Source: Gautieria morchelliformis
Taxonomy: Eukaryota > Basidiomycota > Agaricomycetes > Gomphales > Gomphaceae
Assembly: GCA_015179125.1 (NCBI GenBank)
Contig: WHVA01000426.1
Coordinates: 1-64,000, forward strand
Direction of reading: 5' to 3'
DNA length: 64,000 nucleotides
The position numbers and the translations under genes were made by a program. Below the pieces are notes generated by a model, which saw only the letters and a program-made list of their open reading frames with translations, had not been told where the DNA came from and made no database searches. This document shows, piece after piece, positions 3,836 to 61,664 of the stretch (its first letter is position 1; each line of letters starts with the position of its first letter).

Positions 3836-4630
3836 CATGCAATGGGAGCGCCAGCCAGTGATGACTTACAGCCGTACTAGCCCGGCGCATTCCAAATCGA
3901 CTTGGGCGACAACTACCATGGAGAAGGTGAATTCGGCTGCAGTCGGGGAACGACTGCACTGTTGTGCTTCCATGGGTAGTTGGGCGATATTTACCATCGT
4001 ACTCAAGCACCTATTGCGAAAATTCTGCGTCTATTTTTGGCCGGCATGCAAAGAAGAGTGTAAGCACAAGGGTGCCTGTCGGGTGGAATCGTCCATGAAA
4101 ACAATGGTATAAGTAGACACCCGGAAGAGAGTCAAGTACGCACAGTAATTAAGGTCGCACAGGAATTGGTCGTGCTCCCGCAACGGGCTTACAGTAAGAC
4201 GGATATGAAGAGTCCAATCAGATCATTCGTGTCAAACATGAGCAGTTTTCTACGGGATTAAGAGTATGCTGCACGGAGGCAGACGAAGTAAGCAGCGGGG
4301 AGATATCATGGACAGCCGAATTGGTCGAGATGCTGCCATAGACTCTGAAGGCGATTGGTCCTCCGCAGGAAGCGAGTGTAATTACTTTAGTTTTCTTTAG
4401 GGATTTCGAGCATGCAAAAGCTGGGTACTGTATTGGTGGATAATCAATCGGAGGCCAACGAGAATGCGTCACGCGTGACACGAATGTCGGTCAACTTAAG
4501 CCGGCACCTTGTGATTTCAATCGCTCATCATACGCTCCAGCAAGGGATTTGTATCAGATGCTCATATTTTAACTAGTACATGCTGGTCCGTGCCTTCTGC
4601 CAGGACATATTGTTTTCACGTGAATCAACT
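3836..4630. other. No feature recognised
   Basis: About 0.8 kb without a convincing reading frame, splice structure or repeat end on either strand. Short open stretches on the plus strand (3822-4112) and minus strand (4218-4481) look like chance. Confidence 0.4.
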
Positions 4631-4634
4631 TCTC

Positions 4635-5864
4635 TCATTGATAAAGCTTGAAACCCTCATGTTCTTTTCCGGGACTTCCTGCCTTGCAATGGAAAGGTTT
4701 TACTACCAACGCTTCGATTGCCTTGGCATCCAGCCTTGGCTTGTCACCGATGCGCCCCTTGCAGGACTCCATGAGATGTTTCCGAAGAGTATCTCTCCGG
4801 ACGTATGTCCTGGGATACCCGTTGCGCATGCAGCCCCCGGGGAACAGCACCTCCTGTCCGTCTGAAAGGTCATGCTTAGCCTTTGACTTGCCCTTTTTTT
4901 GTGTAGGAGGTATGTCCGCCGACCCATCCTCAAGCCGTGTTCGCCTCGTGTTCGCGGTTACTCCGGAAGGCGAGTCGGGTACTGGATCCGGCTGCATAGC
5001 TTGGGATCCCGCCATCAAACTGGCAACATTTTTTGCTGCCGGTGGGATGGCCGTGGTGGTCCACGCGTCCCTCTGGTTGTAATAATAATGTTGAGTTGTG
5101 ATGGTGAGCCTGTAACATGGGCCAGGGTTATATCTCTGTCTGTCGAATACACGCGAAGGCACGCACATGTTTTGCCCACCATCTGGGCAGTCATCACCTC
5201 CGCTATCATAAGGGCAAGAGATGTTTGCCTGATACGCTGGTGCGCCATTGTCTTGGTACGACACGTATTGTTGCGGTAGAGACATATCCCTAGTCTCTTG
5301 AACGCTTATGAACTGGGTCAGATACTTATGTCCTATTACACAACAAAAACTTTGCCTACCTGAAATATCCTAGGAATTCCGCATACGACAGGGACGTCCA
5401 GTCTATCTCCCCGCTGGGAGCCACACTGCATGACATCGGCCCAAGTTCTTGGGAGAAACCCTCAGGAGCGTTGTTTGTGGACGACTCCTGCGGTAGATAA
5501 GGCGGTCCGGTCTCCTGACACCTTATAAACAGGTGAGATATGTGTTGTTACAAAGAAAAGGTCTTTGCATACCGCAGGTATTCCGCACCATTCCCAGCTG
5601 TCTGAGCACTCTGCGGGAAGTCCCGCCTCACAAAGTGATGAGATTCTGACCTGTGTGTGGGCCAGTGAGTTTTTCTGCGCTCTGACAGAAACACGAAACA
5701 TACTGAGAAGGTTGGCCGAGGTTGTTGGTCCGGGCCGGGAAGGCCGAAGTGTCAGGTGACACATTTGCCATCCGCTGTTCTGGATATTGCCTCTGCTGAT
5801 CCGTCCGGTGCTCCGATATGCCTATCGCAGCCTGCCAAAACATTGTTAGTGGCATACGCCGCAA
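4635..5864 (-). CDS. Multi-exon host gene with a C2H2-like finger (transcription factor-like)
   Basis: The last exon (5289-4635) encodes about 218 residues. Its Tyr/Gln/Pro-rich start is followed by a basic patch (QKKGKSKAKH) and, about 70 residues from the end, a finger-like motif: Cys, then NGYPRTYVRRDTLRKHLMES, then Cys. This is the F/Y-x-R-x-D-x-L-x-x-H layout of a C2H2 finger with a final Cys. An intron at 5359-5290 (70 nt, GTAGGC..TAG) joins it in frame to an exon 5514-5360; a candidate intron 5572-5515 (58 nt) lies upstream. The first exons (to about 5864) have two alternative splice chains and the start is unresolved. Nuclear DNA binding is inferred from the finger only. Codon use and intron size fit a host gene; it is one of the few loci here without an obvious break. 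Confidence 0.5.
5290..5359 (-). other. Spliceosomal intron, 70 nt
   Basis: The intron starts GTAGGC after TTCAG and ends ACTAG before GGATATG. A CTGAC branch-point-like motif lies about 30 nt before the acceptor. Removing it keeps the frame open on both sides, giving EFLGYFR then DMSLPQQ. This supports the exon structure of the C2H2-like gene and a basidiomycete origin. Confidence 0.6.
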
Positions 5865-6739
5865 GCTCGAGCATGAATGATTACTCTTGTTTGCGGGAGG
5901 TAGGGTATATACATGCCAGGATGCTTGCTTGGGCCCGGAACTGATGGGTGTAGCCCATAAGGGTTTGGGGCAGTGTACTGATCATAGGTGCTAATGCATC
6001 GTGGTATCATATGTCAGCGTGCAGAGATACGGCATTGAATGGCAAGACTCACCTGCGCCCAGAGGTATTGCTGTAGTAGTGTGCATGGTATGGGAGAGTC
6101 AGAGTATGTTGCGACAGGGAAAGGAACGCATGTCCTTTATATATCTACTTGGGTCAACACACGAATAGTCATCCTAATACACGCCTGCGTTGAGTCCGAT
6201 ACCCTGGGAACGGCATTATAGAGTTTACGTGTCAAGAACGTGGATACCTGACGGCATCCAGTCAAATGTAGACGAAGCTCAGATCGATCCTGTCGAGTCA
6301 CAATAATAGGGTGTGCCTGACACGATAACGCTAGCTTCTAGCGAAGAATATCTAAGCATGTTTTGGGCACTCACAGAAGCCGGAGAAAATATTCCACGTG
6401 AACAAGTGACATCGGGGTTTAGTAAAAATGTTTACCGGATGGCGTTGGACTTTGACCTGTGAAGCTTGAAGGCTTGTAAGAAGCACATGGCTGTTGTATT
6501 CCGGCGCACCTATTTCAAAATGTTACAGCCGGAGCGTGACTTTCTCGGAACACCAATACTTTATCATCACGAATCGCCGGGTGATCGCTGTTCTCCCAGT
6601 TCATGGTGATTATCAGTGCACGTGAGCTCTCCCGTCTTCGCTGAAAACTCTGGAGTCCCATTGCAGTTGGAGCAGGCCTGATAGGTTGGCAATAGGGATC
6701 ATATCTTACTGCTGCGTCAAAGGATGGGCCCAGTCAATC
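5865..6739. other. No gene recognised
   Basis: Probable upstream region of the C2H2-like gene. It holds no long frame and no repeat end that I can see. A short minus-strand exon of that gene could lie near 6040-6090 but cannot be fixed by eye. Confidence 0.35.
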
Positions 6740-7411
6740 ATGATACATATCCATGAGGTTTCAGTAAATGGCAGGCATCTTCCCCGTCAGCTTTCGGCCT
6801 GGATCGAGAAGGCCAAGATCAATTCGGCGCAGACTACTGACTGCTCGTGGGAGTGGCATACTTCTCCACTCTTCCCTGGTTCTCTGGCTGAGAATTATGT
6901 CGTTCACTCCACTCTCACTCCAGTTCCCGACTCTCCAGAACCCAGCAAAGTTTTCTTCGAGTCTGCGGAACCGTCCTGTGAGTCCAACTCGGCATATTTT
7001 CTCTCCAATGGTTTCATTACCTCTTCAGTCCGCACTGCACGTGCGTTCCGTGCTGAAGTCGAGCGGGATATCCTCAAACGCACTCGCAACTTCTCTCCTG
7101 AAGACCCCAGCCGCGACGGTTCCGACTCCAACAAGAAACAACTCGTCCTATGGCAGCCGTCACTCGCTCGCCTCATCGAGTTGCGTTGGTCCCTGATTTC
7201 AGGAGAAGTCGTCTCATTTGAAGGATCGGCCCCTACTCCAGCTGCTACACCAGTCCCTTCTATCCTTCCCAATTCCACTCTCGACTCTCACTTGGGTTCC
7301 GTCGATCCACGCATCTGTGCCGGCAACTGCTTTGAACCTCGCCACGCTAGGCCTTTCAAGATCGAAGCATGGTTCAAAACAGAGGTGGTAGGCAATATGG
7401 AATCGACCTAG
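6740..7411 (+). CDS. Hypothetical protein, 223 residues
   Basis: An open frame from the first ATG at 6740 to a TAG at 7409-7411. The product is Ser/Pro-rich with one acidic/basic segment (RAFRAEVERDILKRTRNF) and no recognised domain, signal peptide or membrane segment. Composition is like the disordered N-terminus of a larger protein, host or element. It lies about 350 bases before the start of an unrelated frame at 7763, and that gap carries a TATA-like box and a hairpin. I cannot assign a function. Confidence 0.3.
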   Translation: MIHIHEVSVNGRHLPRQLSAWIEKAKINSAQTTDCSWEWHTSPLFPGSLAENYVVHSTLTPVPDSPEPSKVFFESAEPSCESNSAYFLSNGFITSSVRTARAFRAEVERDILKRTRNFSPEDPSRDGSDSNKKQLVLWQPSLARLIELRWSLISGEVVSFEGSAPTPAATPVPSILPNSTLDSHLGSVDPRICAGNCFEPRHARPFKIEAWFKTEVVGNMEST

Positions 7412-7506
7412 GGTGACGAGTACGTTTAAATAGGGGGGATCGTGTATGGGATCTATGTAAGCATAATTATCCAATACGGCCGACCACTTACGCATACCAA
7501 AAGGTA

Positions 7507-7532
7507 AGACACGGGCACCTAGGCCCGTGTCT
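7507..7532. other. Perfect hairpin, 10-bp arms
   Basis: AGACACGGGC, a 6-nt spacer (ACCTAG), then GCCCGTGTCT. A CATATAAG box follows at 7535. It sits in the gap between two reading frames and could belong to an LTR or promoter. No terminator-like tract follows. Confidence 0.4.
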
Positions 7533-7762
7533 CCTCATATAAGTAGCCTACCCAAACCATACATGTATAATAGAGAAAAACTGACCCCGAACATATACTT
7601 GGTTACGACTGGTCATCCTGTCTGCTAAGATATTTCCAAGTCCCCTCTAAACCATCTTACATTTTTTGACCCGTCTTCACAAATCCAACACCTTCCGAAA
7701 CTCTCCGGCCTGATCAACCGGTGAGCATATCGCACAACTTCCCACAACTAACCAGACCCACT

Positions 7763-8107
7763 ATGTCGACTCGAACCGGCCGAACGTACCAACGGGCAAC
7801 GCGCCCACAGCGCGCTGCCAGCATGGATGCGGCACGTACACTCGATACCTCTCATGGTGAACGCCTGACGGCATTCCATGAGGCACTGAGTAGACGACAG
7901 GGGGACGGATGGGGTACAACGCACCCGCCGTCCCAGGCGTCGCTACAAGCGACCAGTCGCGAGGGGTCTATGCCCTCAGCAGACACCCTCAACGAGGTTA
8001 GAGTGGAGGAGGTACCACTCCCCCCCTCCGTCTCAGACGTGCTCTCGACTGCTGAGCACGTCGACGCTCCCTCGGGCCTTCAAATGGCCGAGGTGGAAGC
8101 CGTGGAT
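7763..8107 (+). pseudogene. Gag-like N-terminal frame fused upstream of Copia RT
   Basis: The frame starts MSTRTGRTYQRATRPQ, a Ser/Thr/Arg-rich start that resembles gag N-termini of fungal LTR elements, and continues for about 115 residues without a known domain. It runs directly into Copia reverse transcriptase sequence, while the usual gag, protease and integrase are absent. It may be the remains of a different element joined to the Copia piece. Fossil, broken. Confidence 0.35.
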
Positions 8108-8109
8108 GC

Positions 8110-10411
8110 TCCTGGGAGCGCCGAAAGGCGTTTGTGGTACTGGCAGAAGACGAACCGGGAAGTTACAAGGAAGCAATGGGATCAGAGAATAGAGAGAAAT
8201 GGAGGAAAGCTTGTGAGGAGGAGTACAAGAGTTGATGGGGTATCACATGTGGGAGTTAGTCAAGAAACCGACAGGCGCAAACGTGGTGGGAAGCAGGTGG
8301 ATATTCAGGGTTAAAAGAGACAACAAAGGAGACGTCGATATGTTCAAATCTCGAGTCGTTGCGCAGGGCTACTCACAGGTCCCAGGCGTTGACTATCAAG
8401 AAACCTATTCCCCTACCATCCAACTCACTTCTATTCGACTCATACTCGCACTCGCCTGCAAATATGATCTAGAACTATGCCAAGTAGACGTGAAGGGAGC
8501 GTACCTAAACGGAAGACTGGAGGATGAGGTTTATATGCGACAGCCAGAGGGGTTTATCAAGCCGGGAGAGGAGGACATGGTATGCAAGCTGGTGAAAGGG
8601 ATATATGGGCTGAACAATCAGGGAGGGTCTGGCATGGAACGTTAAAAGGGGAAATGGAGAGAATGGGTTTCAGGGCGGGAGATGCTGTGGACAAAACGAT
8701 TTTTTTCAGGTTCGGGGGGGGGGATAGTGTCGAAATAGCAGGGTGGTACGTCGACGACGGCCTACTCGCATCGAGCTCCTTAACGGCAATGGAGAGGATG
8801 GTGACAGATATAAAAGGGAGCTTCGACATTCAAGATCTGGGTGACCCAACACGTCTTCTTGGCATCCAGATAATCCGGAACCGCAATCTCAGTACCATAC
8901 ACATCTCACAACCCGCGTTCATAAACACCATCACCAAAAGATTCGATATCACAGCCGGACGAACCATCAATTCTCCCATGGATCATAACGTCGAACTACG
9001 TATCTCCACTTCTCCCTCTGACATCATCGACTTCACATACACCTCTATAATCGGCAGTCTCAACTACTGTTCAGTTGCCACCCGCCCCAACATCTCCTTC
9101 GCAGTCAGCAAATGTGCACAATACTCCTCCAAACCCAACGCCACACATTGGGAAGCTGCAAAGAGGATCGTCAGGTATTTGCTGAGCACGAAAGAGTACG
9201 GAATCACCTACCAGAGAGAGGGTGAAGGGGCAGTTGGCTTCACGCACAACTTAGCAGGATATACCGACTCCGACTTCGCCGGCGATCGAGATGATCGTAA
9301 ATCCACAACGGGCTGGGTATTCACCTTCAACGGGGCACCAATCTGTTGGGCTTCTAAAAAACAGAGCCTAGTTAGCAGATCGACAATGGAGGCCGAACTC
9401 GTAGCGAGCTCATTCGCAACAGCTGAGGGTATATGGTTGATAAGACTCGGAAGAGATTTCAAACACGACTTCACCCCAATCCCTATTTTTACCGACAATC
9501 AATCATCCATTGCATTCTCCAACGATAGTGTGGGCAGCGGCAGGACCAAACACATAGATGTTCATTACCACTACACGGAGGACCAACTGATGGCAGGGAA
9601 CATACGACTACATTACATCAATTCCCTCGATAACCCCGCCGACGTCCTCACAAAGCCCTTGTCACCTCGCAAACATCTCCACATCCTAGAAGCGCTAGGA
9701 ATGCGTCATGTTTGAGGAGGAGTGTTGTGAAATCACGAAGTATCATTTGCTTAATCCACAAAAACACCATATCCGCAGCTCACACATCACACACACGTTC
9801 ACATCAGTCACCCGATCCACATCAACACGAACCCGTCTCCTCAGTACCATTCCTACCCACAAAAGCCCACACATTACATCATTTCGAAGGGTCATATATC
9901 AACAGTCGATGCATCAGACCACGGATGTATCCCCGAGCCCGAACGAATCTGATCCATGGAGTGGCACGACGGCTAGCCCGCCGGTCACTCATATCCATTT
10001 TCTTTTCTCCCCTTCTATATCCCATATCACTCGCTTCTGAACATACACCATATTCCATTACTCCCATTCGTTAGAATCCACATACATTCCGCAGCTACCG
10101 GTATAACAAATCCCGTACCATCATCCGCACCTCCTCACGCCGGTCGTACACATTCGTCCTATTTCGTTCCATACATCAGTTAAAAGCACGTCGAATGTAT
10201 AGTACTAGTCCAGTCAAATCGTACTCACTGATTCGAAGCATTATATCGACGCACATAATCTGTGTGTATTTTTGTCTTGTTGCATACATCTTCGTATGCA
10301 AATTGTTGTCTCTCATATCGACCTCTACTCGATTCGACTTCACTTTTAAGTTTGAATCATACATCTATTTGACTTAGTATTATTGGAAACTTTTATTCTT
10401 CTCATTGACAG
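8110..10411 (+). mobile_element. Copia element, 3' part (RT, RNase H, 3' LTR), broken
   Basis: The polyprotein region 8110-9715 has the Copia RT core in order: RWIFRVKRD, VAQGYSQVPGVDYQETYSP, QVDVKGAYLNG and YVDDGLL (about 8745). The RNase H end carries GYTDSDFAGD, SKKQSLVSRSTMEAEL and the KHIDVHYHYTED block. A polypurine tract GAGGAGGAG at 9714-9722 directly precedes the 3' LTR. The gag-protease-integrase part is missing. It is a fossil with about two breaks in what remains, and looks fairly young by its long open frame (8582-9715). Confidence 0.85.
9723..10411 (+). repeat. Copia 3' LTR
   Basis: The LTR starts TGTTGTGAAATC right after the polypurine tract and most likely ends near ..CTCATTGACA at 10411. 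No matching 5' LTR is present in the window. The start TGTTGTGA is shared with the nested insertion at 52476. The exact right end is uncertain by some tens of bases. Confidence 0.6.
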
Positions 10412-11698: not shown

Positions 11699-12438
11699 TG
11701 TTGAAAGTATTAAAGAATACAATATTAACATATTGTCTACAACAAACATAACACCATATCACAACCAACACACCGATAACCCCTCTCTCGGGACATATAC
11801 ATCACGACGCTAGCGCCCGAGACCGCCGGATCATCATATGCCCACTCAAATTGACCCGAACACATCCCCCGACTCCCCCGATATCACAGGGACACATATC
11901 ACGTGTTACCACGACTCACAACACCCAAAACGCTATCCAAGAACACCGAGCCCATCCCGAATCACGTGCTTTCCATCAGTCACGTGACCCAATCAAGGGA
12001 CGTGACGCATCGAGCCGACCCTGCCTATACCCAGATTATGCCCCCTATCCTTCACCAAACTTCCGTCCCCGCATCCTACTTTACACTCCATCTCCAAGCC
12101 CAACCTATACACCACACGTCGTCTCTCCTATCGTTACATGTGCGCCGCTCGCCCCATTCCATCATCCCTTCAGTATTACACCACCAATCCCTTGACCGCC
12201 AAGTGCCACCAGTAACTAATAAATACGTGACCCCATGTACAATAACATAGCAGTGAAATAGCACCTCGTTTCACCTCTCATTCTGTAGTAGAATTTCTAG
12301 TCGGCACTAAAGTCATAAGACACGTATACTTACTGTGCGCGCAGATATTCCTGTCTACTCTAAAATCTCACTCGATTTATCTCATAACCAAGAGATTAAA
12401 TCAATTATTCTCAATATCATTCCTAGTATAAAATCACA
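11699..12438 (+). repeat. Copia 5' LTR with E-box cluster
   Basis: The LTR starts TGTTGAAAGTATT and ends near AAATCACA. It has a TATA-like TAATAAATACG box (about 12214) and three CACGTG motifs within 90 bp (11900, 11963, 11981). The downstream half aligns with the LTR remnant at 2746-3010. The 3' boundary is approximate because no second LTR is present. Confidence 0.65.
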
Positions 12439-13867
12439 GATTAAGAGTCTCAGACTCTACTCACGATGGCACAGGCACCTACGACCACCCAATCACCACC
12501 AAAACACGACATACACAAATTCCGAGACATAAAACCAAAACTCAACAAGAACAACTGGATTTCATGGAAGAGGGAACTACTGGCAACGGCGAGGGACAGA
12601 GGGATATACAAAACGATCATCGGTACGGACATTTACCCTACCAACACTGACCCACGCATCACAGTTATCGCCGGAATCGACATGATCGGCAACACCCCAC
12701 TCACACAACTAAGACGAATGGGATGATAGGAACAACGTTGCGTATAGTCAAATCCTTCTATGTATATCACCAGAATTACAGATGGCCATCGACAAAACGG
12801 GATTATGCGCCGAGGCATGGAACATACTGATTAGGAAATCCGAATCAACCGATCCGAGCAAAATCAGTATTATTAGGACAAGGTACGAGAACTATCACAT
12901 GACAGAGGGACAATCGGTCTCGGAATATATTACTACTATGAAAGAATATAGGAATCAACTGGCAAAAATGGGCGACCCCATTGCCGACTCCACACACTGT
13001 GCCACTCTACTCAGGAACGTACCTGAATCATGGAGACCCATTGCACAAACCATACGCATGATCACTAGAGACCCAGACGAAATCGAAGAGAAACTGGAAG
13101 CCCATGAAGCTGACCTAGGAGCCGTCAAGGTATCAACACAAGCGGCCACAGCATTTGTGGCACAGACTCGACAACCCAGACGTTTCAACAACTCACCGAC
13201 TCGACCGACATTCAACAGTTACAACACACAACAGAATCGACCCCCGATCCAACAATCAGGAGGACACAACTTCTCCTGCAACAACTGCGGCAAACCAAAC
13301 CACTCAGCATCAAGATGTCACGCACCTGGAGGAGGGCTAGCGACACACGAACCATGGAAAAAATACAACAATGCACAAGGAGGGAACACAATGGGAGGAG
13401 GGAACTCACAGGGAGGGGGATACAACGGACCCAACAGATTTGAAAATAACAGACCGACACCACCTCAACAACACCAACCGAACGCCAACAACGTTTCAGC
13501 ACAATTCGCCAACGTACCGAAGAAAGACATCGTCATGATGGTGCACGAGGAGACGAAAGCAGACCCCGAGGCCAGTGATATAATCCTATCGACAGATTCC
13601 ATGGCATTATCAGCCATAAAGGACAATGTACACATCTGGCTAGTCAATTCCGGGGCCACCAGTCACCTATGCAGCAACATCGATTTATTCGACGAAATGC
13701 ATCCCACACCACCGATTTCCATCGAAACAGCCAGCGGAGACTCCTTCAGAGCCAATCAGAGGGGAACCATCAGAACAACACTACAAAGCGATGCTCACCT
13801 GCACCTACCACCCCTATCCCTCACACTGATCGACATCATATTCGTCGCGAACGCAGACATTGTTTGA
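11699..13867 (+). mobile_element. Copia element, 5' part (LTR, gag, protease), truncated
   Basis: The 5' LTR is followed by gag from 12466 (MAQAPTTTQSPPKHD..), a UBN2-type gag core (SVSEYITTMKEYRNQLAKMG), one CCHC knuckle (CNNCGKPNHSASRCH, about 13278-13322) and a retropepsin-like site (LVNSGATSHLC, near 13640-13670). The sequence stops at about 13867 against an oppositely oriented Copia fragment. RT and integrase are missing. Fossil with about two breaks. Confidence 0.85.
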
Positions 13868-21242: not shown

Positions 21243-22445
21243 GTGCGCCGTAGCTACGGGACATGGCCGGTCCCGGTCCCGCAGCGATTTAAGGGTGGCT
21301 CAGCGCCGAAGAATGCTCTAGCACTGGTTACATAATTTTGGCACCGACCGCGCCGCCGACTCAACGGTCAGGGTCGTCGAGCGTAAAATGACGGATTGTC
21401 TGCACTTCCGTGACTTTGTGGATTCGACATTCATCTAATCCCATCCCCATCATTTTATAATGTCTGGTTTTCCTTCTATCCTTCCCAGGCTGGGCGTACA
21501 GAACACGGCACACAACTGCCGTTCTAGTAGGGTGATGTCCGGACATGAGGTTAGAGCTCAGTTTGTTTTATGTTACATGTTGGGCTCACGATGTATGTCA
21601 TCAACGTCAGGAGCACTGTCTGGTTGAGCCACGGCAAAATCAAGGCCGCTACAGCCCACCGTGCCGGTACTACACTCATGGAGTCACTTACTGTGATGGT
21701 ATGGCCTCTATTGTAGTTTGGGGCAGTGTTCCGATGTCTGATATGTAACATGCCGAAGGATCAAGTTTCTCTGCCAATCGAGGCAAATCATCTTCAACTC
21801 TCGATGTCTAGAGGTACTGTGTCTTCAGGATGGGGAACACCATTTGATCCTATGACGAGTTAACAACTCAGTCGTGCCGGGCGGCTTGGGTAATTTTTAT
21901 GGACTCCTGGATTCTAGGTATTGTAGTGAATCGCCTTTAGTCAGGGTGATTGAAACGGCGACTCCCCAACAGATCATCATACCTAACCGCCTTGCCGCAG
22001 ACGCACTCGATAGCAGTCTTTCTTTAAGCTTCTTGATCATCACTAGCGTATGGATTTTAGGCTGTGATAGCGGTGCGTGGAGTTATTTTTGAGCATGCCA
22101 TCCCGTTCCCTGACTATCGTCAGCCTCGAAGGTCAACGCTTTGTCACCCAGGGTAACTACTCGTGGCGGTGGCTTTAATCCCTGTCTGAGTTCCGTCCCC
22201 TTCTGCCACTCATGCTATAAGGTTCTTTCGATGGACGGTTCATCTTTAACATCCAGATATCTTAGTTTACGGTATACGATCACCCTATGGCATCTCAGCA
22301 GAGCGTGGATATCCAGGCTATGTCAGATAGGTGAGCAGGTCGGGCCATTCAGTGGTTTAGAGTCTTAACAATCTAGAAGTCTGGTTCTCGCCTATGTGGA
22401 CCTTGCTACCTTTGATGTGTAAGGAATAATCATGGACCGTTAACG
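21243..22445. other. No gene recognised
   Basis: 1.2 kb with short frames only. The first exon of the DUF6533-type gene should lie in its right part, upstream of 22446, but I cannot identify it. Confidence 0.35.
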
Positions 22446-22553
22446 TATCCCTGATCCAAGTAGCGCTGCTCGCCTATGATACTCTCTTGACCCTCCCATT
22501 CGAGATTACCTATATCTGGCACAGAAGAGTCAGATTAGGAACTGTTCTTTATC
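22446..22553 (+). pseudogene. DUF6533-type membrane protein gene, 5' piece of a split exon
   Basis: The plus strand reads VSLIQVALLAYDTLLTLPFE, then ITYIWHRRVRLGTVLY. This is the first membrane segment and the Y-D-x-L-L-T-L-x-x-E-x-x-Y-I-W signature of the Agaricomycete DUF6533 family. The exon is cut at 22553 by the poly(A) end of LINE L1, and its continuation starts at 29037 after the duplicated target. Function of the family is unknown; it is a multi-pass membrane protein. Confidence 0.7.
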
Positions 22554-22576
22554 TTTTTTTTTTTTTTTTTTTTTTT
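22554..22576 (-). other. Poly(A) tail of L1
   Basis: 23 consecutive T on the plus strand, abutting the target duplication, as left by target-primed reverse transcription. Confidence 0.85.
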
Positions 22577-23059
22577 ATGTCATTTTAATCGACCCCAGGC
22601 TAGGCCTATGTTGGTCGCTACACGCGTTGTACTAATAATTGGATGGGCCTTCCCTCTCGCTCCCTAGGGCTCCCATCCCTCTGCGTCCTCGAGCGGGCGA
22701 GTGCACTGACGACGAGCTCCCTGCCCCCCGCCAGCCCGACTCCTTGAGCCGTTTCTCGCCCCACCCTTTTGAAGCAAGTACTCCCGTTCCCCTGTTGGTT
22801 GTTCTAGTGTGTGGGTGGTCTGGCTTTCTAAGTGCTCGGCCGCCGGGGCGGGCTGGCACGACGTGTGGGAGCGCCGCAGTCGAAGGTAAAAAGGGGTCCA
22901 CGGACTTCTTCTTGGTCTTGCTGCGACGAGTCGGTACGCGTCGCTGCGCGAGCGGTGTGAGTGGGGTGTTTTGAGGGTTTTGGTCGCGCGATGGCGCAAC
23001 GATGTTGTCCGTCGTCTTGTATTCTAGCGTCCCTGTCGAGCTAGTTATCTTATACTTTT

Positions 23060-26000
23060 TTAAGTGAGTGACGGGGAGACATCACCGAACGCCGATTTCT
23101 GCCTGCCTGTCGCCGCTACGTATCCCAGTAGCGTCTCCATCGAGTTCTTTGCACCCAGGAGCTCCTTGATGTACCCTGACTTTCTGCCCAGCTTCCGTCT
23201 CACCCTGTGTCTTGCGTGCTCGTGCGCTCTACATTCGAAGAGGAAGTGGTGGACCGTCTCGTCGGCCCTGTGGCACGCCGGGCACAGCGGGGATGGCACC
23301 TGCTTGACCCGATGGAGGTGTTTGTTGAGCGGGGCGTGGCCTGTGCGTAACTGCGTGATCAGACTGTTCTGCGCTCGAGTGAGGCCCGCCGTGTCTCGGA
23401 GGTAGGCGCGTGAGGGAAGGCTGTCGTCGATTCTCGCCATCCTCCCGTACCGGGGTGACGCTTTCCATCGCTCTCTCCAACTGTGCCTGTTGCCTGTCTT
23501 GAACTCCTGCCTCGCGGCAGCCAGACTGCGTGGGAGAGCGTCAGCCACTAAGAAGTGCAGGAGCGTACTTATCTGACTGCTCTCTCCAGCTGCTGCCTCT
23601 TTTGCTGCCGCGTCCGCAGCCTCATTGCCTTCCACGTCGTCGTGACCTGAGATCCACGTGATCTTGATGCGCACGTTGCGTCTCCTTGAGGGCGTTGCCA
23701 TCCTGTTGGCCATGTCGTGGATGTGTCCTAGAATGTGTTGCGCCGGCTTGGGCTTGACGTTACCTACTGCCAGTATCACTCCCTGGTTATCAAGGAGTAT
23801 GCACGCCGTTCTGACGCCCTTTTCTCGACTTACCAGCTCCAGCGCCAGGATGACGCCCACCGCCTCCGCCTCATACGTGGTGTGGTCCGCAAGTGGGCCC
23901 AGGTGGTATTGTAACGTGGCTGCCTTTCTCCCTGCCCTATACAGTATCGCCGCCGCCCCCGCATTGCCCTCTAGTCCTGACCCATCAGCGTAGACCTTGG
24001 CATCCGCCATGTTCTGAGCGTCCGCTTCCCTAGATTCCTCCCTCGACTCCGCTATCTCCGTGACGAACAGCCTGGGAGCGTCGGGAGCATGGATGAAGGG
24101 CTGGATGACTTCTAGGGAGTCCGGGTCGAGGCTGAAGCGGTGGAGGATCCTGTGTAGTGATGCCGGGTGCTTTTTTACTAGGCGGCGGGCGCAGGAGCGA
24201 GCTGGCCGGTGTAGCGGGTGGGACTTGGGGAGGGTTGCAATGCGGCTGGCTGCCTTGTAGCAGATGCCTAGGAGAAGGAGCTCTATCGGCTGGATGTTGG
24301 AGAGGATCTCCAGGACGTCCCTCGCGGTCGTGCGCATCGCTCCAGTGATAGCGATGGTAGCCATGCGCTGCACAGATGTTAGCTTACGCACCACGCTCAC
24401 AGACCCTGTCGCTCTCCCCTCCCCTCGGTTCCTTTGCACCGGCGTGTACCAGACATCCGCAGCGTCCGTGAATTTGGGTATCGCCACTGCGCTGTATAGT
24501 TGCCTCATGTACGTTGCACGCACCCCTGTGGAGGGTTTAGTTAGTCTGCGAGCCAGTAACGTCCACTTAGCCGCTTTCGCCACTGCCTTCTCAGCCTGAT
24601 CTTTCCATCGCAATTCCTCGTCCAAGAAGACCCCTAGGAACTTGTGTGCCGATGTTGGCTGGACGACGGTGTCCTCGTACGTGAAGTCGGGCCTTATGTC
24701 TCACTTGGTTTTGCCCGGCCTCGCAGGGTCTTCCATCCGGCGTCTCGAGAACCCCACTATCGCAAACTTGGATTTTTCAAATCTGGAGTGGTGGGTCAGT
24801 GTCCACTCTTTCGCCCCCCCCCTCCTTGAGCAGCATCTCCCTCAGCCCCTCGTACGCTTCCTCGTAGGTGTCGCCTTCTGAGTAGAGGTTGGCGTCGTCG
24901 ACGTACGCCACCACGGCCTGCCCCTTTCCGTTAGCGATATCTATGAGGCCAGCGTTGTAATAGAGGTAAAGAATCATAGAGAGCGGGTCCCCCTGCCCGA
25001 TCCCGTTGTCTATGTGTACCCAGTCCGAGAGGTGATCGTCGAACTTGATCCTGGTGCGTCGGCCGGCCAGCATCCGTCCCACGAAGTTCACGAACTCCTC
25101 TGGCACCCTTCTCTTCCTCATGTTGTGCAGGAGCCAATCCGTTACCGCGTTCGGGAACGCTCCCTCAATGTCGAGGAAAAGCATTACCGCTACCTTCTTT
25201 CTCCTCCACGCTCCTTTGATCCTGTTGACTACGAGGTGGAGGGAGTCGGTGGTCGTCCTGCCGGGCCTTCCGCCGAAGTGATTGGCTGGCAAGAGATTGT
25301 GCTTCTCAGTAAGGTAAACCAGGTCTTCTGCGACTATCGCCGTTAACAGCTTTCCTATAGTGTTGAGTAGGGCTATGGGGCGGTAAGATTTCGGAGCGTC
25401 GTAGCGGGCCTTGCCCGGTTTCCGTAGCACCACTGTAATCCAGGATCTCCAGCTATCACTGTAGGTTTTCAGCGTGAAGGTAGCACGAAAGATATAAAGG
25501 ATGTGCTCAGCGATCAAATCTACCGCCTCCTTCAGTACTATGTTTGGGATCCCGTCGTCGCCTGGGGCCTTATGCGGCTTCAGTTTATTGATTTGGCGCC
25601 TCATGAAGCTGGAAGCTGTGGCGGACGTGCTTTGGGTAACGATAGTCTGTCGGTACCTGTGATTCGGTGGGCTTGGGCGGGAAGAATGCCGCTGCCAGGG
25701 CTAGGCTCTTCTCTTCGTTGGTTTCTGCCGTTTGCACAGCGCCGCTGGGCGCTGCTACTTGTAGTGACGGGATTCGAGACTTGCCGCCGTCAGAGGCCGG
25801 ATTGGACAGATACTTGTTTGCGGACCACAGGAGCCCTTCATTGAGATCTTCCAAGTAATCGGCCCAGTGCTGCGCCTTTGCCCTGCCGATCGCTTTGCTG
25901 TACTTTTCGTTGACGTCCTTGAGTTCTGCATGGGTGTGGTGGTCAGCTATCGCGCGGTGGAGGTAAGATTTGTGGTTCAGCCTATTCTTTGTTTTCTTAA

Positions 26001-26997
26001 GCTCCGACAACTCCCTGGTCCACCATCTGCGTGAGTGCGGGACCGGCTTTGACATCGGCACCACGATGTCGATGGTGTCTTGGATGGCGCTCGTCAGCGC
26101 ATTGACTGCTCTGACGAACTCGGCCTTGGTGCCGAGTTCCCTCGCATCCGGAACCACCTCCAGCTGCTCTGCCAGCTGCTCCCGAAAGTGGTCCCAGTCG
26201 ACCATTCTGAAATTTCGGAACGGCTCCGGCTCTTTAACCTCCACCCTAATATCCAGTGTTGTGAGGATAGGGACATGGTCGGTCCCTGGGCCGTGCCTTC
26301 TCAGGTCGGTGTCGCAAGTGATGATGGAGCCGGCAACGTTGTCCGTGCAGAACACGTTGTCGACCCTGGTCCAATTCTTGGTCGACATCGATTGCAGAGT
26401 GGGCGTTCGCTTCGGGAGAGCCATCACCATGTTGTACTCTGCTAGCAGCGATAGCAACTCCTCTGCATCTCTAGTGGCCTCAGCGGTGAACAGATGATGA
26501 TTCCTTTCCTCGTCCCACATAGGGTGGTGGCGATTAAAGTCGCCACACCAGACCATGGAGTCTGTTTCCTGCTGGATGATGTTGCCTCGCTCTAGTTCTA
26601 TGAAGTTCTCGATAGCCTGCAGTGACTCCGAGTGTTCGCAGTCGTTGTTGAAGATCGTAGTCTTGCCCTGGGGATGTTTGAGCTGCACCACCACCACGTC
26701 GTTCGTCCCCTGGAGCGACATCTGCGACCACGTGTTGGTATCCAGCGCGGCATTGACCAGGACAACTGTTCTCTTTACGGTGGTGTTAGTCAAATGAGAA
26801 GTGGGGTATAGGACGCGCCAGTTGTGGTTGGCCTTCGTGTTCCCTAGCGTATCAATGTACGGCTCTTGTAGTAGTACTAGGTCCCACTCTTTATGTATCG
26901 CGGAGTTGATGAGGTCGTATTGCGCCTTGTCCGATTTATTGAGGTTTTGTTGAAATATTCTCAGTCTCGTTGGTGTAGGTCCTGTTGTGTAGGACAT
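23060..26997 (-). pseudogene. L1 ORF2, endonuclease-reverse transcriptase-RNase H
   Basis: From the ATG at 26997 come an APE-type endonuclease (LLQEPYIDTLGN, WCGDFNRHHPMWDE, GTDHVPIL), then RT with FLDIEGAFPNAV, IGQGDPLSMILY and the catalytic YVDDANL (about 24895), then RNase H (VYADGSGLEGNAGAAAIL, YEAEAVGV, WISGHDDVEGNEAADA) and a CCHC-like end (CPACHRADETVHHFLFEC). Breaks: a frame change near 25590, another at the C-rich run near 24813, and an in-frame TGA near 24705. The endonuclease also lacks two residues (IY) found in L3 at the FN-IY-NDCEHS motif. RT and RNase H residues are otherwise kept. Confidence 0.85.
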
Positions 26998-28889
26998 CAG
27001 TATTGCTCTGGTAGGGGCGGCTCACCTTCTCTGCCTGTGTCACCCCACCGCTCGGTGGGGCCCTGGTTAAGGCCAACAGGGGGGGGCGCAGCACCCTCGT
27101 TGACGGGATCCTGCTGGGGCGCCGGCTGCAGCCGCCGTCCCGTCGAGCCCTGCCCATATGGGAGCGTCGTCTGCCTGTACTTGCCTCTCCGTCGTGCTAC
27201 TACCTCCCATCCTGTGTCCTGCTGTGGTGCAAATGTCGGGAAGGTGGGTATCGGGATCGGGGGGGAATCTTTGGCGGTTGAGATACATGGGTCCATGCCT
27301 CCTCAGTGGGGAAATAGAGCATCTGGTTCTCAAGGAGTCTAGTGTCTAGCTCGACGCACTTACTCTGAAATACCGGACATGTTCTGGCCCAGCTGGCGTG
27401 TTCCGCAGATTTGCATGAGACGCAGTACAGCCTCGTTTGGTCGCAAGCGGCCGTCCTGTGGCGTCCTCCGCAGGTGCCGCACGTGTCGTGTCCTTGCGGG
27501 CAGCCATAGGACATGTGGTTCCATCCCTGACATTTAAGACAGCGGGTGGGCTCCTTCTTGCACTTCTCGGCATAAACGCGCTTCTGACACACGATCAGTC
27601 CATCCGTCAGTATCTTGTTGGCTACCTCGGGCGTGGTGAAGGTGATGAGGGCGTGGCCACAGGTCTGGTTCGCTGCCCTGCGCTGTCTGGGCTTGATCCA
27701 TCTTGCCTTATCGATCGCGCCATGCGACAGGCGGTTGACTTTCTCCATCTCCCTCAGCTCCTCCTCGCGCTCCGGTATGAAGTGGAGTGGGACGAATTGT
27801 AGTACTAGCAAGAATAGCCGCGCCTTCATCCTCGCGTCTGGCGCAAGTGCCTCTGTGAATCGCACTCTGCGCTCAGCTCCATTGAGCCACCTCGCCGCCG
27901 CTTCATCATTGAGTTCGAATAGTACCCCTCCATTCGTGAGTCTCCTCGTGCTAACAACAGTGCGGACCCCTTCCGTGTCCATAGCGCTGATGATTTCGTT
28001 TGCCTGGGTCATCAGGTCGGCGTTGTCCATTTCTGCCAGTATGCGCTCCCCCAGGGCCGCAGCATCCACCAGGACTTGTCTCTGCTTTATTCCTTCCCTC
28101 GCCCGGACCCTGGCATTGAGGGTGGGTGCGCTGGCCGGTGCTCGTTGCGTGATGTCCGCCACCTTCACCATTGCGTCTCGATATGAGGTGCTGGTTTCGT
28201 TGATCTGAGTTGCTGAGGAGGCGACCGTGTTCGACGCCATCTGCATCGCCTTCACTACCGTCGCCGCGTCCTCGGAGATCTGGCGGGATAGCTTGGCTGT
28301 GGCACCCGCAGCTGCCGTGGCTTTGTCGAGCATTTCTGTGGCCTCCGCCACTTTGATTGAGAGAGCGTTTCCTTCCGCTGCAAGACTCTCTTTTACTCGG
28401 CACATAACTCTCTCGTATCTCGTGTCGTCCTCGATGCTTTCCATCACGAATGCGATGGATCGCAGCGCGTTGACAGCCTGCCGCGACACTCCTTTGTATT
28501 GTGTCACTTGCAGTATGGCGGTACAGCGTGTCGGTCGTCCAAGATGCGCCCGGAACTGTCAGCAGGGTACGTTCAAGGTAAATCTTACCTTCATCGGAAT
28601 CCCTGATCTCCTGTCCCGGTAAGTCTCTTATCTCCTCCCTGGTGAGGCACTCCGGGTCCTGCGCTGCACCTCTTGTGGCTGGCCGTCCCGTCTGCACCCT
28701 CTTTTCTCCCGGGACCTCGACTCGCTTCGTCTGCTCTGGCTGTTTCTCCTTCGTTGTGCTGATTGTTGTTCTGGGCTGGATTCGGCCTTGGGTGTCTAGC
28801 TTCGCTTGTGCCATGGTCGTAGGCGCTGGTGCCTGTCGCGTGGGCGTGTTTCTGCCCCTCGCACCGCTCGTCGACGCGTCGTTCGACAT
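26995..28889 (-). pseudogene. L1 ORF1, CCHC nucleic-acid-binding protein
   Basis: Starts MSNDASTSGARGRNTPTRQ and has a disordered N-terminus, a long helical region (about 28500-28100), a conserved core (RAREGIKQRQVLVDAAALGE) and three CCHC-type knuckles near 27560-27380: CLKCQGWNHMSYGC, CGTCGGRHRTAAC and CVSCKSAEHASWARTC. A one-base frame change lies near 28525-28530. A second -1 change occurs at a run of seven C (plus-strand G 27259-27265), after which the tail (DTGWEVVARRRGKYRQ..) runs to a TGA overlapping the ORF2 ATG. In the family this protein binds LINE RNA and acts as chaperone. See findings for the -1 relation. Confidence 0.75.
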
Positions 28890-29024
28890 CAGAGCGAGGG
28901 TTGGTGGGTGTTATGTATGTAAAGAGTGATTTTTGAGCGTAGCTAAGGCGGTAGTTATGGCAGAAAAGTAGGAACTCTAAGTTGCGGTCCGTGGGTGGTG
29001 GTGGTCGGAGTGCAAAAGGTCTAC

Positions 29025-30508
29025 CTGTTCTGTATCTGCTCGCTCGCTACCCTATCTTGCTTGTCTGTATCTTTAACATATACTTAGATATAGCAAACAT
29101 CCCGCTAGAGGTGAGTGGGTTTATTCGTGAAATGCAGGTTGCTCACATACATATCCAGTATGACATTTGTTTTCTTTTACACATCATCTGATGCCACACA
29201 GTGTGTGTACCACCTGGATTCGTCTCCTATATTGTCTAGCCATTGTGATACTTCCAGGTATAGAAGGTAACTATATACTGGTAAGTCCTCAGCCATACCC
29301 CCTTGCAGGACTGTTATGGGCGCAAGTATACGCCATGTCCCAGCACAATCAAGGGGTGCGGTGGGTGCTTGGAGCCCTCGGTCTTCTTCTGTATATGGGC
29401 AGTCTGGGTACGGGAGTGGTACGCACGCTTCCCTTTTCAAGCTGAAGTCTGCCATTCATTTATCTTGAAAATATTGTAATACAGTTCATCGTAGTCAAAG
29501 GGGCATGCAACGCCACAGCTCAGGAGCTGGGTGCTCTACATTGGTGAGTGACAACAGCAGTTATATTGAAGCAGGTTCATATCATATATCACTTTGTCAG
29601 GGGTGAGAAATTCTCATGTTCAGTTGTGGTTTAACAGACCATTTATTCCTAGCGGAAACAATGAATAATGTGTTCCTTATACTTTTTGACACATTGGTCG
29701 TTGTTGTGACACTATACAATACCCTTGGACTCGTGAGGAGGTCAAGGGAGTTTCAGATGCTCCCTCGGAAGTCATTGACCCAAACTTTGGCTGAACAAGG
29801 TCTGTTAATTCATCCTTACACTTTTGAAATTGCTCATTGCTCAGATTTGTATTGAGTATAACATTAGCATCTGCCATCACTACTAAGCTAATGAAGGTGT
29901 CCAATTTATAAGACGTACCTAATATTCAATATAACAGGTTTTAAGAGTGAGTCCACTGCTTGCATATACTTGGTTGTTCAATTTTACATGCGGTCATTAG
30001 CCCAGCATTTCAGGGATTCTTTCCACTGTGCAGGACAGGTCAGATATTAGGAGCCTAGATAATAAGATATATGGCTAACGCTACATGTAGTCTGTCTGTC
30101 ATCGTTATTTGTCGCTGTCATCTTGCTCTTCAAGAGAGGGTTGCTCACCCTAATGGCACCATCCATTCTGCACACCATCCCGTAACGAGCTTTCGTGCAG
30201 CTACACGACATATTCACAATTCGCTCATAGAGGAATTCGGCGATCTGAGTGTCAGCGAGACTGGAGCTTCAGAACATCACGGGAAGGACGGCCCCTCTTC
30301 TACCGCAGTGGTGGGCATCGAGCTTGAGGAAATCCGTCACGGAGGGAGCCTGGGGGTGGTGTGGATGATTCCTCCAGTGAGGTCTCTACTGAACCGCAAA
30401 CTGGTAAGTCGTCCTTCCTGTTCTTTTGATGGATCATACCTTCTTGCGACTCAATACAATACCCTTGTAGTGGCGGCGTCGACGGGGCAGGTATCAATAG
30501 AGATCTGA
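29025..30508 (+). pseudogene. DUF6533-type membrane protein gene, 3' part
   Basis: The split exon resumes with LYLLARYPILLVCIFNIYLD and ends at a GTGAGTG donor (29111). Later exons: VCTTWIRLLYCLAIVILP up to 29257; an intron 29258-29308 (51 nt, GTATAG..TTGCAG); LLWAQVYAMSQHNQGVRWVL plus the segment GALGLLLYMGSLGTGVV; after TTTAACAG, NNVFLILFDTLVVVVTLYNT with the basic loop RRSREF; then FVLSITLASAITTKLMK near 29850-29900; and a hydrophilic tail near 30120-30390 (HPNGTIHSAHHP..). Membrane-segment order and the RVYA/VYAM-like motif fit the family. The phase between the first two exons is not clean, so a small indel after the LINE insertion is likely. The stop used may be at 30508. Confidence 0.6.
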
Positions 30509-31329: not shown

Positions 31330-31850
31330 TGGCTGTGTCATCACGACAGCTTCTGCCATCGGAGTGATGCGGTGATCGATCACGTCAATCATCTCGATCG
31401 TGGAACAGGAAAATCGCCATTTATAGCATGATGTGCATCCAGACCCAATTAGGCGACTAATATGGAGAGCCACTCGGTGCCATCGTAAACAACAGGATCT
31501 CGCACCTCCATGGGTATTAGTACAAATTTGAGAGTCGCGCAATAGAACTATCTGCGGGGTCGGGCGCTTGATATTTATGATTCTGAGCATGACATGGCAA
31601 GTCGGAATCTTCGGCTCACTGGCAGAGTATGTGGCCACAAATGGTACAAGGCCTTCGGATCGTTCCCTGCCCGGAATATCAACGTCATGTCATATCCCTG
31701 CATATGACAGTGTTCCAAGCTATACACGTCTCCTTATACTCGAACGGGACACTAACTCTCAGAGTGGGCTTTCACGATGCGATTAGTAGGGAGAGATTTG
31801 TCAAACTGTACGTCGCGGCGACCGGTTCAGTGAAATTGTAAACTGCCGCG
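31330..31850 (+). repeat. Duplicated non-coding module, copy 2
   Basis: The segment CTTCTGCCATCGGAGTGATGC.. through GGTTCAGTGAAATTGTAA matches 39820-40155 and, in part, 35790-35990 and the inverse of 17130-17200. It holds no convincing frame. At about 31850 it is joined directly to the Ser/Arg-rich gene copy, a junction not present at 40155. Confidence 0.65.
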
Positions 31851-42366: not shown

Positions 42367-45300
42367 ACGAAGAAAACCAACAAATGCGAAAATTGAGAAT
42401 CAGACAACAGAACATCAACAAATCGCTAACGGCAACGGTAGAAATGCTAGCTAAGTGCTCACCCGAAAAATATGACGTCCTCGCAATCCAAGAACCATAT
42501 ATTGACTTCCTAGGCAACACCAAACTGGTACTCGGTGTACCCCAGAACACACTTCAATGATAAAGAGAAGTGAACGAGATCGATGCTGCTGATAAGCAAA
42601 AAGATGGCGACGAGCGCGTGGGGAGCAATTGACATGGGATCGCCAGATGTCACGGCAGCAAAGATAAAAACCAACATGGGTGACGTCCTGATAGTTAATC
42701 CATACGTGGACTGCGCCCATTCTAACAGTATAAGAGCCATACAGAAATATATGCAACACAGAGCGGCGGAAGGGACCATGCAAGAAAGGGAGATAGAGGG
42801 CATGGTGTGGCTCAGGGATTTCAATAGGCATCACCCGGTCTGGGACGAGCTGCGCAATGCACACTTATTCACAAGGGCAAATTTAGATGAGGCGCAAATA
42901 CTATTGGACGCAATAGCAGATCACGGACTACACATGGCGCTACCTAAGGATGTACCAACGCTAAGATCGATGGCCACAGGGAATTACACGCGAACAGATA
43001 ATGTCTTTGCATCGCCTTCAGTCATGATTAGCTGCAGCACAGTGCCAGAAGATCTACCACCAAAAAGCGACCACCTGCCCATAGACACCATGATCGACGT
43101 ATCCATCAAGGCAAGCACCCAACCGCCGAAGCCCAATTACAGACAGGTGGACTGGAAGGAATACAGAAAGATGCTCGAAGCTGAGTTAAAAGAGAGACTC
43201 AAAGAACCCATACCACTCACTGCTCAACAGTTCCATCAAAACTTGCGAGAGATGACAATGGCCATCTTGGATACCACAGAAGAACTAGTGCCAAAAAACA
43301 GGCCGTCGATATACATGAAGCGATGGTGGTCCTTACAGCTGTCGCGCACCAGAACAGAGACCAGGCGGCTCGCAAGGAAAGCATATGTGCTAAGAGACGA
43401 CCCGACACACGCAGCACACAAAGAATACAGAGCCTCTCGGAATCGCTACGCGGAAGACATAGAGAGGTCAAAAAGAGAGCATTGGAAAGACTTCCTTGAT
43501 GGCATAGACCAAAATACGATATGGGCAGCCCACAGATACGCTTCGGCGGACGCGGGAGACGGGGTCAGACGCGGGTACCGACGCTAGTGACAAAAAATGC
43601 AAACAGCGTGAAGCAGATAGCAGAGACAAACGAACAAAAGTCAGACCTACTCTTAGACACCTTTTCCCCAGAGCCAGGAGAAGCGGTTGAACAAATACCG
43701 GAGGACTACGAGTATCCCCCGCCGGAGTTCGAGTATCAGCCAATCTCAGACGAGCAGATCAGAAGAGCTGTGGACAAACTCAACCAGTTCAAGGCACCGG
43801 GAGAAAATGGTATCCCTAATGAACTCATAAAACAGTGCATTGACACCCTTCTACCGTACATAGGACCTCTCTTCCGCGCAACGTTCGACCTCAAAGTATA
43901 CCCGGCAGAGTGGAGGGATTCAATAACAAAGGTCCTCCGCAAGCCAGGTAAGGCAGACTACATGGCTCCAGGTGCCTATCGGCCGATCGCACTACTGGAC
44001 ACGATGGGAAAAGTGCTGTCCGCGTGCGTGGCGGAGGATCTGGTAAGATGACGGAAAAATACCAATTGTTACCCGACAACCACTTTGGATGCAGACCCGG
44101 AAGAACGACAACCGACGCCGTACACTACGTGGTGTCAGAGGTGAAGGACGCGTGGAGGAGAGGAAACGTACTTGGGGTGCTATATCTGGACATCAAGGGA
44201 GCGTTTCCAAGCATAGTGCTAGACCGGCTGGCTCATAACATGCGAAGAAGGGGAGTACCACGTGAATACACCAATTGGATACGCAGAAAGGTCCAAAACA
44301 GGCTTACCACGGTAAGTTTTGATGACTACTTTCCGCAACCAGACCCATTGGGCGAGGAATGGACCAGGTTGTCCGCTATCGGCACTCGCTTACCAGTTTT
44401 ACAACGGTGACCTGATAGACGTGGTGTGGCACAACAACGGAGAAGGGAGCGTGGGATTTGTGGACGACACCACTATAATAGCCGAAGGTCCGGACCTCGA
44501 GAAGGCGTTCAGTAAGCTATCGGAACATAATGGTTAGACCAGATGGGGCAAACGACTGGGCGGAAAAACACTACTGCCAGTTCACGGTAGAAAAGGTTCG
44601 GTTTGATGGGACTCACCAGACGCAGAGAAAAAGACCCTGCCAAGCCGGGCAAAACCAGACCAGTAGCGAGACCGGAGATAAGAATAGGGCAGCACGTCAT
44701 AAAACCCACAACAGCGCACAAGTTCCTGGGGTAATGATGGACCAAGAACTGAGATTCCGGGAGCACGTCAACTACGCGCTGAAGAAAGGAGAGGCGTACA
44801 TAAACCAGTACAGAAGACTTGCGAAACCGTCCAAGGAGTAACAGCTAAGTACATGAGGACGTACTACATGACGGTAGCAGTCCCGAGAATGTTGTAAATG
44901 TTGTACGCAGCTGACGTCTTCCTAGTTCCAGAAATGGCCACAAGCAAGGGAACAAAGGGGTTTATTAATAAACTCGCAAGAATTCAGAGGCGGGCGGCGA
45001 TAGACATTACAGGAGCCCTCATGACAACGGCCAACGACATTCTCGATGCACACGCGTACCTCCTCCCTTTCCCGCTGATGGTATCCAAAATAGTGCACAG
45101 AGCGGCAGTTCGACTTGCGTGCCTCCCCCAGAGCCACCTGATGTGGGAAAAGTGAGGAAAGCAGCGAAAAGATACGTAAAGTGCACAGATCCCCCCTACA
45201 CGAGATAATGCACGCCTTCAGTCTACAGCCAGATGTGATGGAGAAAATACATACAGTGGTGTTCGGTCCGAAGTGGACGCTGGCCTTCAGCGTGAGGATC

Positions 45301-61629: not shown

Positions 61630-61664
61630 ATTCGTTTGCCTCCGAAGTTGGGACTTGTGCGTAG
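59154..61664 (+). CDS. L3 ORF2, endonuclease-reverse transcriptase, truncated
   Basis: A single open frame of about 836 residues from the ATG at 59154; the last 11 resid­ues (from 61630) come from the joined sequence. Endonuclease: LLQEPYIDTLGNTK, FNIYNDCEHS, WCGDFNRHHPMWDE, GTDHVPIL. RT: KPYKAPGDDGIPNIV, SYRPISLLNTIGKLL, HFGGRPGRTTTDSIH, FLDIKGAFPNAVTD, GIGQGDPLSMILY and YVDDANLLSEG (about 61265). All catalytic residues of both domains are present. RNase H is missing. The product could nick DNA and copy RNA in principle, but the element cannot retrotranspose itself without its 3' end. Confidence 0.85.
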   Translation: MSYMLEPLPKRLRIYQQNLNKYDKAQYDLINSTIHAEQDLILLQEPYIDTLGNTKANHNWRVLYPSSHLTDPATKRSVILVNAALDTNTWSQISFTGSNDVTAVQLKHPRGKITIFNIYNDCEHSVMLRAVDSYINSERNRIIQHETDSMLWCGDFNRHHPMWDEERNHHLFTAEATMAAEELISLLADYNMVMTLPRRLPTLQSMSTKNWTRVDNVFCTDNIADSIVICDTVPGRRGPGTDHVPILTTLDIGVEVKKTEPFRNYRMVNWSDFREQLAEQLEAIPDARESGTIAEFNEMVSALTTAIQDTIDMAVPMSKPVPHSRRWWTRELSELKKKKNRINHQSYKHRASADHPSHEEHREISEKYGKAISKAKAQHWADYLDGLDEGLLWTANKYLTNPATDGGRSRIPSLHVVDGNGIASTAETNEEKGRALATAFFPPRADESQVPPGYQYPRRVNHAFQLNGDQLRCQICKLKPYKAPGDDGIPNIVLKESADLLAEYLLCIFRATFTLSTYSDNWKSWITVVLRKPGKASYDTPKSYRPISLLNTIGKLLTAIVAEDLVYLTEKHGLLPANHFGGRPGRTTTDSIHLVVNKIRGAWRRKKVAVMLFLDIKGAFPNAVTDRLLHNMRKRKVPEAYVLFVEQLLDGRRTRIKFDDFTSEWVPIDNGIGQGDPLSMILYLFYNADLLDVASGKGQMAVAYVDDANLLSEGNTYEEAYDRLREMLLKVGGAREWTLTHHSRFEKSKFAVVGFSRKRVPDPTQPGKTSREQRPDFVYEGTVIRPSLAHKFLGVYLDEELRWKTQSEKAVAKAATWTLLARRLTNSFASEVGTCA

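Follow-up and report, generated by a model that had tools for sequence, protein, structure and literature searches.

Fungal long interspersed nuclear elements (LINEs) that combine an apurinic/apyrimidinic endonuclease (APE) with a ribonuclease H (RNase H), presumably the Tad1-like clade, possess two open reading frames (ORFs), the second of which encodes the endonuclease (EN), the reverse transcriptase (RT) and RNase H, and they carry a poly-A tail and short target duplications. All these features recur in an element of the basidiomycete Gautieria morchelliformis, found in a stretch of 64,000 nucleotides (contig WHVA01000426.1; hereafter the window), where it interrupts a gene for a DUF6533 protein. 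DUF6533 (PF20151, IPR045340) has been described as a region that is found in integral membrane proteins of fungi and is specific to basidiomycetes (PMC10949477). The PF20151 domain is common to the gene in the window and to Snowball (SNB1), a DUF6533 protein of Agaricomycetes; the gene considered here, however, is broken and belongs to a large subfamily whose members are close copies. With respect to LINE activity in mushrooms, a study of Marasmius oreades describes new insertions in protoclones, with a 5' end variable in length (PMC9674265). Both there and here LINE insertion generates presence/absence variation in a mushroom, but the insertion in Gautieria is inherited, full-length and located within an exon.

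We propose, with a probability of about 95%, that an APE-type LINE hit the DUF6533 exon of one copy of this gene family in a single event, before the window copy (contig C478) and a second copy on contig C439 split from each other but after their separation from a third copy on contig C1014. The core of this reading, namely that a full-length LINE lies antisense within a DUF6533 exon and that an exact empty site exists, is supported by the comparison of copies within the genome (122 Mb in 1,113 contigs), which was searched with each flank of the element as a query. On C1014 the left flank (12652-13006) and the right flank (11842-12663) lie on one strand, are 98-99% identical to the window, and overlap by exactly one 12-mer, CTGTTCTTTATC, which constitutes the empty site. 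The original prediction, made from the letters of the window alone, had called for an exact empty site and for an uninterrupted allele in which both flanks are linked, and C1014 provides both within the same genome. On C439 the flanks are about 6.5 kb apart, with the LINE between them and a perfect 12-bp duplication, making it a second filled copy. We scored 40 of the 53 candidate places that match the left flank, one of them being the window itself; among the 39 others, 26 cross the site without interruption (25 besides C1014), C439 is the sole carrier of the LINE, C402 exhibits a different gap, and for 11 the places scored include no match on the right-hand side. The next-best paralogs after C1014 are 88% identical. 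As to the identity of the interrupted exon, the left flank (22430-22555) alone matches PF20151 with an E-value of 1.3e-8 (35.3 bits, cut-off 24.1), and the uninterrupted exon of C1014, whose translation is SWPVNVSLIQVALLAYDTLLTLPFEITYIWHRRVRLGTVLYLLARYPILLVCIFNIYLDIANIPLE (the leading residues fall in a predicted intron), with an E-value of 1.8e-11 (44.4 bits).

In the window the LINE occupies positions 22554-29024 (6,471 bp, minus strand) and is bracketed by CTGTTCTTTATC at 22542-22553, which ends the left part of the exon and is immediately followed by the poly-T, and by CTGTTCTGTATC at 29025-29036, which begins the right part of the exon a few letters beyond the 5' end of the element, GAGTGCAAAAGG. 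These 12-bp copies differ by a single mismatch, as had been described. The mismatch had been assigned to the left copy; we place it in the right one, and the window is the only copy with the changed letter, since CTT is found in C1014 and in both repeats of C439. The 12-mer had also been said to encode VLYL; the frame across it, (A)CT GTT CTT TAT C(TG), gives V-L-Y as in-frame coding sequence, but only a part of the final L, together with a part of a preceding T. To account for this arrangement, a plus-strand nick made by the endonuclease would have followed CTGTTCTTTATC, target-primed reverse transcription would have started at this nick with priming by the poly-A tail of the LINE RNA, and cleavage of the second strand 12 bp away would have led to the 12-bp duplication.

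The kinship of the copies is compatible with one insertion in the common ancestor of the C478 and C439 blocks, following their split from the C1014 lineage, whose block would have retained the empty site. On the right-hand side of the LINE, three pieces were compared, in which C478 and C439 differ by 0.67-0.75%, as against 1.04-1.55% between C478 and C1014 and 1.01-1.37% between C439 and C1014, and farther to the right the divergence between C478 and C439 climbs to 1.1-1.2%. Of the changes in the gene region that could be polarized, C478 and C439 share 6, another 13 fall on the C1014 branch, and 7 and 11 are private to C478 and C439, respectively. On the basis of these figures, we take the filled copies, C478 and C439, to be sisters. 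The two copies of the LINE, in the window and in C439, exhibit 117 mismatches in 6,436 sites, of which 80 are CpG transitions (12 bases are missing from the 5' end of the slice taken from C439, and this accounts for one 12-base gap in the LINE and another in the first comparison of the right flank). Outside CpG transitions, the divergence of the LINE (37/6436 = 0.57%) is close to that of the flanks (43/8522 = 0.50%), consistent with one insertion before the split of C478 and C439. The additional CpG decay inside the LINE points to decay driven by methylation, which we postulate from the pattern of substitutions.

The behavior of the LINE elsewhere in the genome provides another line of evidence. 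Target duplications of about 10-13 bp, differing in sequence, accompany five of the six other elements for which both ends could be placed; the true pairs of left and right ends score 10-13 in C349 (with a mismatch further on), C316, C882, C413 and C271, whereas 70 mismatched pairs, which include a short string from C560, exhibit a mean score of 4.5 and a maximum of 9. Because the placed copies have duplicated different target sequences, we have rejected the possibility of a LINE that is site-specific in the strict sense. According to our inspection by eye, the nick sites in six independent insertions are C/TGC (three times), C/TGA, C/TTGA and G/TCTGG; the nick tends to precede T-G, but this tendency is weak and the poly-T obscures it.

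Several observations weigh against the proposed history. The duplication in the window itself is imperfect, and its score of 9 equals the best score among the mismatched pairs; the matter is settled solely by the empty site of C1014 and the perfect duplication of C439, and a chance origin of the repeat is excluded because C1014 carries the empty site. Elsewhere, the element on C326 shows no duplication (score 5), the left end of the one on C560 was not located, and the match of C316 sits in a CT-rich repeat, off the junction. The ends of the C271 element (C271:42350-42572 and C271:11833-12054) are 30 kb apart and on opposite strands; they still share a 10-bp target repeat, and this element was perhaps split by an inversion after its insertion. 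With regard to kinship, the sequences left of the gene do not show the sister grouping, and C478 is there roughly as close to one of the other copies as to the other (1.12-1.15% to C439 and 1.02-1.31% to C1014, with 1.93-1.97% between C439 and C1014). The total divergence of the LINE (1.82%) exceeds that of the flanks (0.61-1.10%), and the agreement between them requires setting the CpG transitions aside. Finally, the right flank alone matches no Pfam family, DUF6533 included, although the score rises from the left flank alone to the uninterrupted exon.

The element exhibits the attributes of a LINE, i.e. EN and RT domains, a poly-A tail at the 3' end (seen as poly-T on the plus strand from 22554), short target duplication and absence of long terminal repeats (LTRs): when the window was compared with itself (matches over 100 bp), no repeat was seen to join the ends of 22554-29024. 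Its domains were identified by running the ORF pieces separately against Pfam, and all lie on the minus strand. The remnant of ORF1 (27200-28558) contains cysteine motifs that, judged by eye, resemble zinc knuckles; it matches no Pfam family above the cut-off (the best being PF19750, 17.9 bits versus a cut-off of 25). ORF2 is broken into pieces, which contain the endonuclease (25585-27021; PF14529 with 46.6 bits, PF03372 with 25.6 bits, and one match in the PDB, the TRAS1 endonuclease 1wdu, E-value 9e-7), the reverse transcriptase (24777-25700; PF00078 with 73.2 bits, and ten PDB matches, including chains of R2 and of LINE-1 ORF2p) and RNase H (23060-24700; PF00075 with 36.4 bits, and zf-RVT with 21.1 bits, under its cut-off). 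The copy in C439 has stop-free frames of 592 and 1,325 codons, the latter comprising EN (PF14529), RT and RNase H together, with PF03372 under the cut-off. The element can be regarded as full-length because its 5' end, GAGTGCAAAAGG, is common to all nine other copies in which this end was read, namely those on C439 (the same insertion), C349, C316, C882, C896 (with the same flank as C882), C413, C271, C560 and C326. Both the full length and the orientation antisense to the gene, as originally claimed, are thereby upheld, since the frames that bear the domains are on the minus strand and the gene is on the plus strand.

Nine exons of the gene itself are predicted on the plus strand of the window. 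Exon 1 (22287-22330, beginning with MASQQSVDIQAMSD) is based on gene models of paralogs and starts with ATG in 7/7 aligned paralogs and in C1014; exon 2 (22377-22414) is followed by the dinucleotide AT instead of GT at the donor position (22415-22416); and the DUF6533 exon is divided into a left part (22464-22553, with the start taken from paralog models) and a right part (29025-29110). Exons 4 to 9 (29202-30345) are predicted at about 29202-29257, 29309-29418, 29485-29543, 29653-29799, 29845-29887 and 30092-30345, respectively. Automatic gene models, which joined the middle exons (4 and 6) inconsistently even with a minimum exon length, were used solely for exons 1-3 and for a 16-bp exon, while the remaining ones were delineated by tests of frame, stops and codons in segments of seven paralogs. 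Hydrophobic stretches are visible by eye in the translations of the gene segments. Genome-wide, at least 150 matches to DUF6533 exceed the cut-off (150 scored from 637 candidates), and several close copies may be found on single contigs, e.g. C559 and C471.

The relatives of the gene are evidently coding. In the seven paralogs, the gene frame of the nine segments contains no stops in 2,032 aligned codons, compared to 100 and 64 stops in the other two frames; relative C1095 contains frameshifts, seen as stops in an ungapped translation. The ratio of the proportions of non-synonymous and synonymous differences (pN/pS) among relatives, from pairs that are not independent, amounts to 0.31, 0.95, 0.59, 0.83, 0.60, 1.80, 0.55, 0.57 and 0.31 for exons 1 to 9, respectively, with another frame giving a lower value in exons 1, 2, 4 and 6 (with stops in exons 2, 4 and 6). 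The divergence from C1014 is alike in coding (14.6%) and non-coding (13.9%) positions; in coding comparisons with C1014 the codon of exon 3 at the target site was set aside, as it is gapped throughout. In exon 6, a stretch of 19 codons (29485-29541) exhibits pN of 0.299 and pS of 0.166 in the seven relatives, with no stops in 132 codons, and is possibly a fast-evolving loop, provided that the frame is correct; the frame of this exon is a weak point, as the other two frames have pN/pS below 1, though with stops. It is tempting to consider the family as a diversifying repertoire of surface or recognition receptors, with a fast exon 6 beside mostly constrained other exons and with turnover by duplication and LINE hits, but we regard this scenario as improbable.

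With regard to the state of the gene when the LINE arrived, we lean to the view that it was already damaged. A rather probable explanation is that the copy was already a pseudogene, or on its way to becoming one, and that the LINE damaged it a second time, with little phenotypic effect, if any. The donor of exon 2 is AT in C478, C439 and C1014 but GT in all nine relatives inspected (the seven aligned ones, C28 and C114), and its loss in the empty copy as well as in both filled ones indicates, by parsimony, that this lesion is older than the LINE. Moreover, with 39 other left-flank copies scored, the loss of one would likely have been tolerated. On the other hand, a shorter model of the C1014 gene, which starts in exon 2, stays open, and the nine segments are free of in-frame stops in C1014, although this is the copy in which they were chosen. 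The alternative that the LINE knocked out a functional gene and thereby caused its loss, as asserted in the original prediction, appears doubtful. It would agree with the coding character of the relatives (their lack of stops, and pN/pS of 0.31-0.60 in exons 1, 3, 5, 7, 8 and 9) and with the confinement to the filled copies of those truncating lesions that are not found in C1014. Nonetheless, the knock-out of a working gene is unproven, because the GT donor of exon 2 was already absent from the empty copy; in addition, the C1014 branch carries a substitution of Ile to Arg in a hydrophobic stretch, and no automatic model of the C1014 gene keeps the canonical start, the shorter start in exon 2 being used instead. 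A precise excision of the LINE from C1014, or gene conversion of C1014 by an uninterrupted paralog, would deprive the empty site of its ancestral status, but it is hardly credible, for in spite of the 25 uninterrupted paralogs besides C1014 that could serve as donors, both sides of the site in C1014 match C478 at 98-99% identity, no paralog-like tract was seen at the site (the next paralogs being at 88%), and no excision route is known for LINEs.

After the insertion both filled copies decayed further. They share the change of GT to CT at a later splice donor (29888), which is GT in C1014 and in 7/7 aligned paralogs, and which would presumably have been lost after the arrival of the LINE. C439 subsequently would have lost the start codon (TTG instead of ATG) and gained a stop, both of which are seen in its sequence. 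The window copy alone carries a deletion of about 70 bp (junction at 29839-29840), which takes out the predicted 16-bp exon together with splice sites, in a stretch that is kept in C1014, C439 and 7/7 aligned paralogs, as well as a further 1-bp deletion; these losses would belong to the C478 branch.

We lean to regarding the block copies as products of a recent segmental duplication rather than as two alleles. A search with PF00562 yielded ten matches on five contigs, corresponding to four RNA-polymerase loci and a stop-bearing fragment on C371, and no near-identical pair was found among the eight RNA-polymerase loci compared, from four contigs. The genome DNA search with the best RNA-polymerase locus revealed no second gene copy; the only other matches were the fragment on C371, at 93% over about 215 bases, and repeats, of which the longest match at 91-94% toward the end of the stretch. 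Positions 4600-9700 of the window have no full-length counterpart in the genome, the longest match being 93% over 2,162 bases, with shorter repeats of up to 97%. The lack of near-identical RNA-polymerase pairs and the unmatched segment 4600-9700 favor the recent duplication. Much of the region 16.6-47.7 kb has a counterpart, and C439 (from position 51001) loses collinearity to the left of window position 19925; leftover haplotigs are a possible explanation of the block copies. A fragment of the C1014 type is also found on C1054 (2 mismatches in 6,486, with 25 gap openings); it is partly an inverted repeat, the centre of which, at about 2668-2679 of C1054:1-10000, joins two arms of the block, and this fold is either an assembly fold-back or a genuine inverted duplication. 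The block contains a small insertion polymorphism at 31461-31552, where the window copy has about 92 bp and C439, C1014 and C1054 have 3-4 bp.

As such, the event is of an ordinary kind, a LINE having inserted into a member of an expanded gene family, and it leaves the knowledge of LINEs and of DUF6533 unchanged. Its value lies in the unusually complete record of a LINE hit within a single genome, in which two inherited filled copies are readable next to the empty site, together with the later damage, and which offers a clean example for measuring the CpG-driven decay of a transposable element against its own flanks.

The window contains other mobile elements. A second LINE (57267-61664, plus strand), in the opposite orientation and with 72-74% DNA identity to the first one, contains a frame of 852 codons, with EN and RT, and a shorter one of 527 codons, and a LINE-type endonuclease frame at 42574-43587 (plus strand; PF14529, 37.5 bits) is probably part of a third element. 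Remnants of Copia-type LTR elements are present at 8528-9715 (plus strand, RVT_2), 12713-13867 (plus strand, gag and Pol_BBD) and 53539-54504 (minus strand, RVT_2). A 400-bp repeat occurs at 48011-48410 and 62886-63284; its copies match each other at 92.5% in direct and at 84% in inverted orientation, and the unit is thus nearly palindromic, resembling a miniature inverted-repeat transposable element.

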